DNA of 64,000 nt from Natronoarchaeum mannanilyticum (lineage in GTDB: Archaea > Halobacteriota > Halobacteria > Halobacteriales > Natronoarchaeaceae): contig NZ_BAAADV010000007.1 of assembly GCF_039522665.1 (NCBI RefSeq), forward strand, positions 1 to 64,000. The letters are read 5' to 3'. A model generated the notes under the pieces. That model did not search any database. It saw only the letters and a program-made list of their open reading frames with translations, and had not been told where the DNA came from. Position numbers and translations under genes: made by a program. Position 1 is the stretch's first letter, and each line of letters begins with the position of its first letter. Positions 46,494 to 50,073 of this stretch are shown here, piece after piece.

Positions 46494-47186
46494 GTGGGGG
46501 TTGAAATCAAGGAGTCGCGGGTCTCCGCCGAGGAGTTCGCGGACATGTCCGAGTTCGTCTACGAGTATCTCGCCGCCAGCGTCGAGAACGAGGACGAGGG
46601 CGGACGGATGCGCTGGTACCCCTGGCACTCCGCCGACTACCGGCACAACCACATCCTGAACGTCGTCGAGCTGGCCGAGGAGATCGCGCGCGCCGAGGGC
46701 GCCGACGTCGACGTCGCGCGGGTCGCCGCGCTGTTCCACGACGTCGCCAAGCTCGACGCCGATCAGGACGTCCACGCCGAGGAGGGCGCACGGGTCGCCC
46801 GACAGTACCTCGAGAACCGCGGGGAGTACCCCGAATCGTTCGTCGACGAGGTCTGTCGAGCCGTCCGCGACCACTCCTACCAGGGCGACCTGACCGACCT
46901 GCCCCTCGAAACGCGGTGCGTGATCGAGGCTGACCTGCTCGACAAGGTCGGCGCCAACGGCACGGCGCTGATGCTGCTGCGCATGGGGTACGAGGCCCGG
47001 ACGCACATGGACGCCGGCCAGATGGTCGAGCGCGTGCTCGAACGCGGGCGGGACGCCGCCGAGCGCGTCGAGACCGACGCCGCGGAGGGGATCGCCCACC
47101 GGCGGCTCAAGCGCGTCCGCTGGTTCCAGGAGTGGCTCGACGACGAGGTCGCCGCGATCGACGTCGACGACAGTCTCCCCGACTGA
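46494..47186 (+). CDS. HD-domain phosphohydrolase
   Basis: A 230-residue protein with the HD metal motif: YRHNHILNVVELAEEIA, then ALFHDVAKLDADQDVHAEEGARVA, and further HSYQGDLTD. This layout (H...HD...D) matches stand-alone HD hydrolases acting on nucleotides or phosphorylated small molecules. The GTG start at 46494 gives MGVEIKESRVSAEEFAD. It is divergent from the sensor kinase across 260 bases of non-coding sequence. Substrate unknown. Confidence 0.88.
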   Translation: MGVEIKESRVSAEEFADMSEFVYEYLAASVENEDEGGRMRWYPWHSADYRHNHILNVVELAEEIARAEGADVDVARVAALFHDVAKLDADQDVHAEEGARVARQYLENRGEYPESFVDEVCRAVRDHSYQGDLTDLPLETRCVIEADLLDKVGANGTALMLLRMGYEARTHMDAGQMVERVLERGRDAAERVETDAAEGIAHRRLKRVRWFQEWLDDEVAAIDVDDSLPD

Positions 47187-47301: not shown

Positions 47302-48540
47302 TCAGATCCCCTGGCCCATCAGGTGACTGCGGAGCACGTCGTCGGACTTCGAGCCCGCGCCGGTGTTGAGCACGACGACCGTGTCCGAGTCGTCGAACTC
47401 GCCGCGCCGCGAGAGCTCCCAGGCGCCGCTGACTGCCGCGGCGGCGCTGGCGCCGACTTCCAGCCCCTCGTTGGCGGCGACGGCGACCGCGCTGTCCAGG
47501 ATGTCGGGGTCCTCGGTCGCGACGGCGCCGCCGCCCGACTCCGCGACGGCGTCGAGCGCGAGCGAGCCGCCCGGCGGGTCGGGGATCTCGATGCCGCCGC
47601 AGATCGTGTCGGGGTACTCGACCGGCTCGACCTCGTCGCGACCCGCCTCCCAGGCGTCGACGATCGGCGCGCAGCCGGCCGCCTGCGCGGCGTAGATCGC
47701 CGGCGTCTCGTCGATCAGCCCGAGTCGCTCCAGTTCCGTCGCGGCCCGGTGGACGCCGACGGCCCCGACCCCGGCGCCGGTCGGCACGACGACGGCGTCG
47801 GGAAGCTCCCACGCCAGCTGTTCGACGATCTCGAACAGCGCCGTCTTCGCGCCCTCGTGGCGGTACGGCGTCGCGAACCAGCCCAGATCGTGCCACCCTT
47901 CCTCCTCGATCGACTCCGCAGCGGCCTCCAATGCGTCGCCGACTCGCCCGCCGACGACGGTCATCTCGCCGTCGTGGACGTTCACCATCGCCTTGTTCGT
48001 AAACGTCGCGCGCGAGGGGACGAACACCTCGGCGTCGAGGCCGGCGCGGGCGGCGTACGCCGCCGCGGACTGCCCGCCGTCCCCGGTCGACGCCAGCGCG
48101 ACCGTGTCGACGCCGCGCTCGCGGGCCGCCGTGACGGCAACGGACTGTCCTCGATCGGCCGTCGATCCGGTCGGGTTCCGTCCGTCGTCTTTGACGTACA
48201 GCTCGCCGACGCCGAGCTCGTCCGCGAGCGACGCGGCCTCGACCAGCGGCGTCCCGCCCTCGTCGATGCTCACCGCAGCCGACCGTTCGAACGGCAGCAG
48301 CTCGCGGTAGCGCCACTGGCTGCCGAACGGCCGGTCGGCGAGCGTCTCCCTGTCGAGGTCGATCGCGTCGTAGTCGTAGGTCGGCGCGAGCGCGCCGCCG
48401 CAGTCGGGACAGCGGCCGGCCGTCTCGTCCTCCTGACGAACTTGCGAGTCAGGGCTCGACGAGCTTCGCTCGTCGGCGGCGTCGAACCGCTCGCCGCACT
48501 CCTGACACTCCAGCCCGGCGAAGGCGTCGCTGGTTTGCAT
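47302..48540 (-). CDS. threonine-synthase-like protein lacking the PLP lysine
   Basis: A 412-residue fold-type II PLP-enzyme-like protein, clearly related to threonine synthase: an N-terminal zinc ribbon (LECQECGERF ... GRCPDCGGALA), the GGTPLVEA strand and a full two-domain core. The catalytic motif, normally PTGSFKDR with the PLP-binding Lys, reads PTGSTADR at residues 123-130, so the lysine is alanine (codon 48157-48159) and the Phe is Thr. The usual ASTGN loop is ASTGD (Asp154). No frameshift explains this; the flanking frame is intact. It is either a dead paralogue, a regulator or an enzyme without PLP. It converges on the HD gene. Confidence 0.85.
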   Translation of the reverse strand: MQTSDAFAGLECQECGERFDAADERSSSSPDSQVRQEDETAGRCPDCGGALAPTYDYDAIDLDRETLADRPFGSQWRYRELLPFERSAAVSIDEGGTPLVEAASLADELGVGELYVKDDGRNPTGSTADRGQSVAVTAARERGVDTVALASTGDGGQSAAAYAARAGLDAEVFVPSRATFTNKAMVNVHDGEMTVVGGRVGDALEAAAESIEEEGWHDLGWFATPYRHEGAKTALFEIVEQLAWELPDAVVVPTGAGVGAVGVHRAATELERLGLIDETPAIYAAQAAGCAPIVDAWEAGRDEVEPVEYPDTICGGIEIPDPPGGSLALDAVAESGGGAVATEDPDILDSAVAVAANEGLEVGASAAAAVSGAWELSRRGEFDDSDTVVVLNTGAGSKSDDVLRSHLMGQGI

Positions 48541-48801: not shown

Positions 48802-50073
48802 ATGTCAACCGACCAGCGCGTGATCGTGGCCGGCGCGGGCCTCTCGGGGCTCGTCGCCGCCCGGCATCTCGCGGACGCCGGCGTCGACGTCGAGGTCGTC
48901 GAGCGCGAAGAGGAGGTGGGCGGTCGCGTGCGGACCACTCGGAAGGACGGCTTCGTGATGGATCGGGGCTTCCAGGTGCTGTTCACCGCCTACCCCGCCG
49001 CGCAGCGCGAACTCGACTACGACGCCCTGAACCTGCGGTACTACACGCCGGGCGCCTGCATCGCTCGCGACGGCGAGCGTTCGATCCTCTCCGATCCCCT
49101 GCGGGATCGCTCGGCGCTGCTGTCATCGGCGCTCAACACCGAAGTTTCGATGACGGATAAAGTTCGGACGCTGAAACTCAGCCGGGAGCTGGCCGGGAAG
49201 TCGCCGACGGCGATCTTCAGCGGTAGCGACCGATCTATCCGGGAGTACCTCCGCGATCGGGGCTTCTCCGAGCGGTTCGTCGAGAACTTCGCGGCGCCCT
49301 TTTACGGCGGCATCACGCTCGATCGATCGCTCTCATCGTCCAGCACGGTGTTCGAGTACACGTTCAAGATGCTCTCGGAGGGTCGGATCGCGGTTCCCGC
49401 AGACGGGATGGGCGCGATCCCCGAGCAGCTCGCCGAGCGCGCCCGCGAGGCCGGCGTGACCGTCATGACCGACACGGAGGTCGAGTCGGTCGACGCAGAC
49501 GACGCCGAAGCGGAGGTGTCCGTCGGCGGCGAGACCAGAACCGCCGACGCCGTCGTCGTCGCGACCGATCCGCCGACGGCTCGCGATCTGACCGGCGTCG
49601 AATCGATCCCGACCGACGGCGAGGGCTGCGTCACGCAGTACTACTCGATGCCTCGATCGGAGTCGCTCGACGCCGGCAAGCGCCTGATCCTCAACGCCGG
49701 CGGCGAGGACCCGAACCACGTCGTCGTCAACTCGGAGATCGCGCCCGAGCACGCGCCGGAGGATCGTCACCTCGCGAGCGCGACGTTCCTCGGCGATCGC
49801 GACGAGCAGCCCGCACGCTTCGACGACATGACGCGGCGCGCGCTGTCGTCGTGGTACCCGGAGCACTCGTTCGCGGACTTCGAGCTTCTGGGGACCGAAC
49901 GCGTCCCGTTCTCGCAGTTCGCCCAGCCGCCGGGCAGTCTCGACGATCTCCCGAGCGTCGACGCGCCCGCCGGGCGGTGTTACCTCGCCGGCGACTACAC
50001 CCGCTGGTCGTCGATCCAGGGCGCGATGGAGAGCGGTCGGGACGCCGCCCAGACCGCGCTGGCGGATCTCTGA
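48802..50073 (+). CDS. FAD-dependent amine-oxidase-fold oxidoreductase
   Basis: A 423-residue flavoprotein. The N-terminal dinucleotide motif VIVAGAGLSGLVAARHLADAG is followed by VVEREEEVGGRVRTTRKDGFVMDRGFQV, the signature of phytoene desaturase and protoporphyrinogen-oxidase-like FAD enzymes, and the C-terminal LAGDYTRWSSIQGAMESG closes the FAD site. Haloarchaea use relatives for carotenoid (bacterioruberin) desaturation, but the closer likeness here is to the general NAD(P)/FAD-dependent oxidoreductase group, so the substrate is left open. Start at the ATG 48802; a long upstream in-frame extension is antisense shadow. Confidence 0.88.
   Translation: MSTDQRVIVAGAGLSGLVAARHLADAGVDVEVVEREEEVGGRVRTTRKDGFVMDRGFQVLFTAYPAAQRELDYDALNLRYYTPGACIARDGERSILSDPLRDRSALLSSALNTEVSMTDKVRTLKLSRELAGKSPTAIFSGSDRSIREYLRDRGFSERFVENFAAPFYGGITLDRSLSSSSTVFEYTFKMLSEGRIAVPADGMGAIPEQLAERAREAGVTVMTDTEVESVDADDAEAEVSVGGETRTADAVVVATDPPTARDLTGVESIPTDGEGCVTQYYSMPRSESLDAGKRLILNAGGEDPNHVVVNSEIAPEHAPEDRHLASATFLGDRDEQPARFDDMTRRALSSWYPEHSFADFELLGTERVPFSQFAQPPGSLDDLPSVDAPAGRCYLAGDYTRWSSIQGAMESGRDAAQTALADL

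Follow-up and report, generated by a model that had tools for sequence, protein, structure and literature searches.

Repeated loss of the Schiff-base lysine in a haloarchaeal threonine-synthase-like protein probably retained for a PLP-independent role

The analysed window, a stretch of 64,000 nucleotides from Natronoarchaeum mannanilyticum (contig NZ_BAAADV010000007.1), carries an open reading frame with an ATG start whose product resembles threonine synthase (ThrC), flanked by one convergent and one divergent gene (Table 1). The original prediction had described this product as a threonine-synthase-like protein in which the Schiff-base lysine of the motif PTGSFKDR is replaced by alanine and the PLP-contacting asparagine of ASTGN by aspartate, and both replacements were confirmed in the sequence (codon GCC for the former, ASTGD for the latter, the residue concerned being the O3'-contacting asparagine). 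The remainder of the protein had been held to be intact and unframeshifted, which is correct for the reading frame and the zinc-ribbon cysteines, but not for the phosphate loop, where glycine occupies the altered position in 121 of 124 lysine-bearing orthologues and in only 3 of 109 lysine-less ones. Thr393 is retained, unlike the lysine, the asparagine and the loop glycine. The asparagine loop, the phosphate loop and the N1 contact are taken here to be PLP contacts on the basis of the ThrC alignment and knowledge of the family.

Table 1. Features of the ThrC-like gene and its neighbours (window coordinates).
Feature	Position	Strand	Basis or remark
ThrC-like gene, probable pseudoenzyme, 412 aa	47302..48540	-	Pfam PALP, NCBIfam PRK08197, AlphaFold model
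Former Schiff-base motif NPTGSTADRG	48148..48177	-	Ala codon GCC at 48157-48159, Lys expected
Former asparagine loop STGDGGQ, Asn to Asp	48070..48090	-	SAGNAGQ in lysine-bearing orthologues
Former PLP-phosphate loop PTGAGVG	47764..47784	-	PTGGGVG in lysine-bearing orthologues
N-terminal zinc ribbon CxxC...CxxC, loop enlarged	48400..48507	-	Four cysteines present
In-frame insertion of 48 bp, apparently a dispersed repeat	48423..48470	-	Alignment with L011 and L115
Segment FTNKAMVNVHDG, aa 180-191	47968..48003	-	Candidate retained-function site; predicted helix 180-188
C-terminal tail DVLRSHLMGQGI, conserved	47305..47340	-	Residue conservation among lysine-less proteins
Convergent HD-domain protein gene	46494..47186	+	Common haloarchaeal neighbourhood
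Divergent flavin amine-oxidase family gene	48802..50073	+	Common haloarchaeal neighbourhood

The protein matches Pfam PALP (PF00291) at 216 bits and scores best against the NCBIfam model PRK08197, 'threonine synthase', whose cut-off of 303 bits is passed by the window protein (331.8 bits), by a second lysine-less orthologue and by lysine-bearing orthologues. Its AlphaFold2 model, built from an alignment of 57 sequences (pLDDT 94.6, pTM 0.93), has Arabidopsis threonine synthase as the nearest solved structure (Z 50.0, rmsd 2.2, 390 residues aligned), with comparable matches to the enzymes of Bacillus (Z 49.1, 330 residues aligned at rmsd 1.8) and Thermus (Z 48.4, 326 residues at rmsd 1.6). Profile and predicted fold place it in the PALP superfamily with a tryptophan-synthase-beta-like PLP fold, and the threonine-synthase fold is retained in the model without the lysine; fold alone does not reveal function. 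With ThrC (EC 4.2.3.1; TIGR00260; PDB 1V7C, 2ZSJ, 6NMX, 2C2B) it shares this fold (Z 43-50) and the motifs PTGS..DR and P-Y-R-x-E-G, and its N-terminal zinc ribbon resembles that of the haloarchaeal ThrC encoded in the same genome. Unlike ThrC, it lacks the Schiff-base lysine of PTGSFKDR and the full set of PLP contacts, with the asparagine changed to aspartate and the phosphate loop modified, and falls below the TIGR00260 thrC cut-off (153.6 vs 167.1).

The enlarged zinc-ribbon loop contains, between the two cysteine pairs, the 48-bp stretch listed in Table 1, which includes the palindrome CGACGAGCGAAGCTCGTCG and is absent from both nearest relatives compared (L011 and L115). Because 10 further stretches related to it occur elsewhere in the genome (E < 1e-3), a dispersed repeat seems to have been inserted into the coding sequence. 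The ribbon is lost in 14 lysine-less sequences; a group of lysine-less members of one family (L260, L261, L266, L269-L271, L273, L280 and L285) lacks ribbon cysteines, the four positions reading C-T-S-A.

Of the 243 genomes searched within the order, 233 gave a match at E <= 1e-60, the match in a few families being a different ThrC-type paralogue. The family is a near-ubiquitous haloarchaeal threonine-synthase-like protein, of which the window gene is the positional orthologue. A few genomes of high completeness (G003, G058) lack a match at the search threshold, indicating that the gene is not indispensable in the strict sense. The combined orthologue set (n = 233) comprises 124 proteins with the lysine and 109 without; it was assembled by similarity-ranked search with divergent families added second, and the resulting 47% of lysine-less proteins is a sample figure rather than a census. 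The lysine is replaced mainly by alanine (26), threonine (26), leucine (19), valine (10), arginine (8), glycine (6) and aspartate (5), more rarely by phenylalanine (3), tyrosine (2), asparagine, glutamate, serine or glutamine, and the motif variants of relatives include STADR, SSTDR, SRTDR, SVADR, SVRDR, SIADR, TVADR, TIDDR, TFLDR and SLGDR, among others. STADR itself recurs in a genome of the same genus (L011), whose protein is 82% identical to that of the window in the genome search and 79% by BLAST, and in two genomes of a third genus of the family. A sequencing error or a single-strain change, either of which would have undone the original prediction, is ruled out by these same-genus and same-family genomes and by the 109 lysine-less orthologues.

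Loss counts were derived from the gene tree, not from a species tree, and the trees were built with the pocket columns removed. Parsimony on the 233 orthologues plus outgroup, inferred with a quick method, requires 9 changes between lysine and non-lysine states, 8 of them forced by starred branches; a careful tree of 90 rows requires 10 changes (9-10 across bootstraps), and about 15 losses are obtained on the collapsed 233-orthologue tree when regain of the lysine is disallowed. The deepest part of the tree, which includes the window lineage, consists of long branches whose placement is not firm. Descent of all lysine-less proteins from one ancient paralogue, spread by duplication or transfer, would make the losses non-independent, and would be in keeping with the two large old lysine-less clades of the 233-orthologue tree and with the outgroup states, threonine at 152 and glycine at 325 (half), found in lysine-less proteins. 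This origin is very improbable, since a single lysine-less clade was rejected by the AU test (dlnL 634, p = 9e-71) and both states coexist within genera g2, g8, g9, g25 and g28, mostly at the same locus. The alignment check suggested by the original prediction therefore recovers conserved lysine-less lineages, but not the one clade envisaged.

Losses of the lysine are accompanied by decay of the surrounding pocket. Nine independent pairs were scored over 179 columns conserved in lysine-bearing proteins; column 323 leaves with the lysine most often (7.5 of 9), followed by 152 and 127 (7), 256 (6.9), 234 (6), 258 and 324 (5.3) and then by 155, 325 and 154, while 105 of the 179 remain unmoved across the independent losses. 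The departing columns belong to the asparagine loop, the phosphate loop or the DPGAS segment or lie next to the lysine, and are presumably PLP contacts, an assignment based on the alignment to known threonine synthases and on family knowledge. Comparison of the sequences shows recurrent loss of the Schiff-base lysine and of further PLP contacts at one and the same locus, and purifying selection that continues to act on the reading frame and on most of the other conserved residues.

The order of events may vary among lineages. Decay can precede loss of the lysine, as in L345 and L346, second copies from two genomes of one genus, which keep TVKDR although YPTGGGVG has become YPLDGTAG or YPLEGTEG; as these proteins have the lysine but no phosphate loop, the presence of the lysine alone is no proof of an active enzyme. 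Similarly, TSKDR is combined with an altered loop in three Natrinema-clade rows. Decay can also follow loss, as in L044, which reads NDR with the asparagine and the glycine at 256 intact. Lysine in a ruined pocket, lysine lost from a mostly intact pocket and full decay together provide natural replicates of the conversion of an enzyme into a pseudoenzyme.

This pattern bears on whether the lysine-less proteins might still be PLP enzymes, with the cofactor held non-covalently or through another lysine. Tryptophan synthase beta K87T, present among the structural matches (PDB 2TYS), retains active-site ligands, and two lysines are widely kept in lysine-less proteins (K117 in 103 of 109, K183 in 108 of 109). 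These kept lysines are, however, also present in lysine-bearing orthologues, as are all of the only four lysines of the window protein, and a relocated lysine can be dismissed because none was gained in the lysine-less set. Moreover, the asparagine, phosphate-loop glycine and threonine contacts decay with the lysine, N154, G256 and T/S393 being kept together in 121 of 124 lysine-bearing proteins vs 1 of 109 lysine-less ones, so that continued catalysis is distinctly doubtful.

Neighbouring genes, called by a composition heuristic, are largely common to lysine-less and lysine-bearing loci: the divergent amine-oxidase gene, a metallophosphoesterase, PAC2, aIF2-alpha, a DtxR-type repressor, LysE and HD. 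One family has an alternative neighbourhood with PcrB, Zincin_2 and SnoaL genes, which also accommodates both forms. An operon partner was considered as a functional clue and set aside, because the same neighbours accompany both forms and indicate no pathway. In family f5, where second copies were read, 14 genomes hold a lysine-less copy and a separate lysine-bearing one; at least one ancestral neighbour adjoins 12 of the 14 lysine-less copies and none of the lysine-bearing partners, for which the stretches were shorter (~1.5 kb per side).

Threonine synthesis is served elsewhere in these genomes by a separate true ThrC, a point that the original prediction had proposed to check: a TIGR00260 match of 277-301 bits occurs in 58 of 58 genomes tested, and all 42 lysine-less genomes among them exceed the cut-off. 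The ThrC of the window genome (L003) reads NPTGSFKDRG and scores 298 bits. The same genome encodes a third ThrC-like paralogue (L007) with PTGSFKDRG and a short zinc ribbon. A further lysine-bearing subfamily, non-syntenic and characterised by NPTNTFKDRG and a PES-I motif, is represented by L347, L348, L349 and L351, whose genomes also carry a lysine-bearing orthologue.

None of the 50 full lysine-less coding sequences contains an internal stop, and Nei-Gojobori dN/dS is 0.06-0.23 for close lysine-less pairs, compared with 0.02-0.15 for close lysine-bearing pairs. The lysine-less copies are thus, by these sequence comparisons, under strong purifying selection, slightly weaker than that on lysine-bearing ones, and a pseudogene is ruled out; lacking the catalytic residues of their family while remaining under selection, they are probable pseudoenzymes. 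An improbable alternative is that a redundant enzyme is under relaxed selection, its genes heading for loss, to which the genomes without a detected gene, the slightly raised dN/dS and the greater variability of lysine-less proteins would be congenial. Mean entropy is 1.44 in lysine-less vs 0.76 in lysine-bearing proteins, although the lysine-less set spans more divergent families, and this variability makes some relaxation likely. Purifying selection, with dN/dS of 0.06-0.23 holding across genus-level divergence and all 50 coding sequences free of stops, largely refutes relaxed selection as the whole explanation, and the 105 columns fixed through independent losses and the maintenance of a lysine-less copy in addition to a lysine-bearing one in 14 genomes also speak against it.

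Conservation is unevenly distributed along the lysine-less proteins. Residues 181-195 (TNKAMVNVH...) form the best-conserved block of the PALP domain (entropy 0.72 against the mean of 1.44), and the largest drop in conservation falls at 256-270, the phosphate-loop block; this combination points to a retained function away from the former cofactor site. In the C-terminal tail, R404, S405, L407, M408 and G411 are each conserved in at least 95% of lysine-less proteins.

Since the rest of the protein is kept despite repeated loss of the lysine, a second, cofactor-free job is the most likely explanation. We favour, with a probability only slightly better than even (roughly 0.55), a core protein of haloarchaea that is selected for a PLP-independent job and whose PLP activity is optional and has been lost many times, leaving a pseudoenzyme. 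The lysine-less proteins would not bind PLP productively, and the PLP-independent function would already have been present in the lysine-bearing ancestor; lysine-bearing orthologues at the same locus elsewhere suggest that the PLP-free role is probably older than the losses. The original prediction that PLP chemistry is lost and the protein kept for another role is upheld in this respect, with the correction that the losses are many and separate and that the whole pocket decays; the sensor, chaperone and decoy roles it named stay hypothetical. A more specific version, in which one fold has two jobs, the PLP-dependent one dropped independently in at least 8 lineages and the PLP-free one located outside the active site, as yet undescribed and maintained in almost all haloarchaea, is put forward tentatively, at somewhat less than an even chance. 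More speculatively, and by analogy with catalytically dead PLP-family paralogues that activate or stabilise a partner enzyme, the fold may serve as a non-catalytic subunit, partner or regulator whose working surfaces lie away from the former pocket; the segment at residues 177-199 and the C-terminal tail are the foremost candidates.

The main rival to this partner or regulator model is a ligand sensor, in which the apo pocket would bind an amino acid or a phosphorylated metabolite without PLP and domain closure would provide the readout. It would explain why substrate-side elements (N122-P123-T124, D129-R130, G153 and R227) are conserved in at least 95% of lysine-less proteins, and it agrees with the intact predicted fold. 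Pocket residues nevertheless vary by lineage, with A, T, L, V, R, D or G at position 128 and S, A, E, D, V and others at position 256, which argues against one conserved ligand and makes a sensor unlikely, albeit less so than the other alternatives weighed above.

PLP enzymes have known dead paralogues, which usually arise once, after duplication. SPTLC1/LCB1 of serine palmitoyltransferase, for instance, is a PLP-family subunit without the lysine that serves as a structural partner; it differs from the haloarchaeal protein in being of fold type I, in having a known partner and in deriving from a single ancient loss. Plant TSB-like is a dead fold-type-II PLP paralogue kept under selection that has an allosteric role and activates TSA; it is a duplicate that differs at two other residues and exists alongside an active TSB (PMC12727527), whereas in haloarchaea the lysine disappears, many times over, from the positional orthologue itself. 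Moonlighting of cyanobacterial ThrC concerns a second PLP reaction and not a PLP-free role (PMC12172450). A transposon screen in H. volcanii yielded one auxotroph in thrC3 (HVO_2969), rescued by Gly+Ser+Thr (PMC4300041). No report of the haloarchaeal ThrC-like family was found in the literature searched. Here, one mostly syntenic orthologue repeatedly loses its catalytic lysine across one archaeal class. Lysine-less proteins above the PRK08197 cut-off would receive the NCBI name threonine synthase, leading to misleading metabolic models, and haloarchaea amenable to genetics allow a direct test of which function is under selection.

The bacterial PRK08197 homologues fetched (Streptomyces, actinomycete and Chloroflexi) all keep the lysine. 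At two Streptomyces loci the thrC-like gene is immediately followed by a ThiS-type protein gene (L097:7221-7499, PF02597; L095:7264-7542), and the homologue of a Chloroflexi MAG (L093:3980-5815) is preceded by a nitrite/sulfite-reductase-like gene; neither gene type belongs to the families that recur around the haloarchaeal genes. This gene order suggests that the bacterial homologues carry out a reaction linked to a sulfur carrier and not simply threonine synthesis, and, by analogy with the ThiS-adjacent homologues, sulfur transfer is a possibility for the activity of the lysine-bearing haloarchaeal form.
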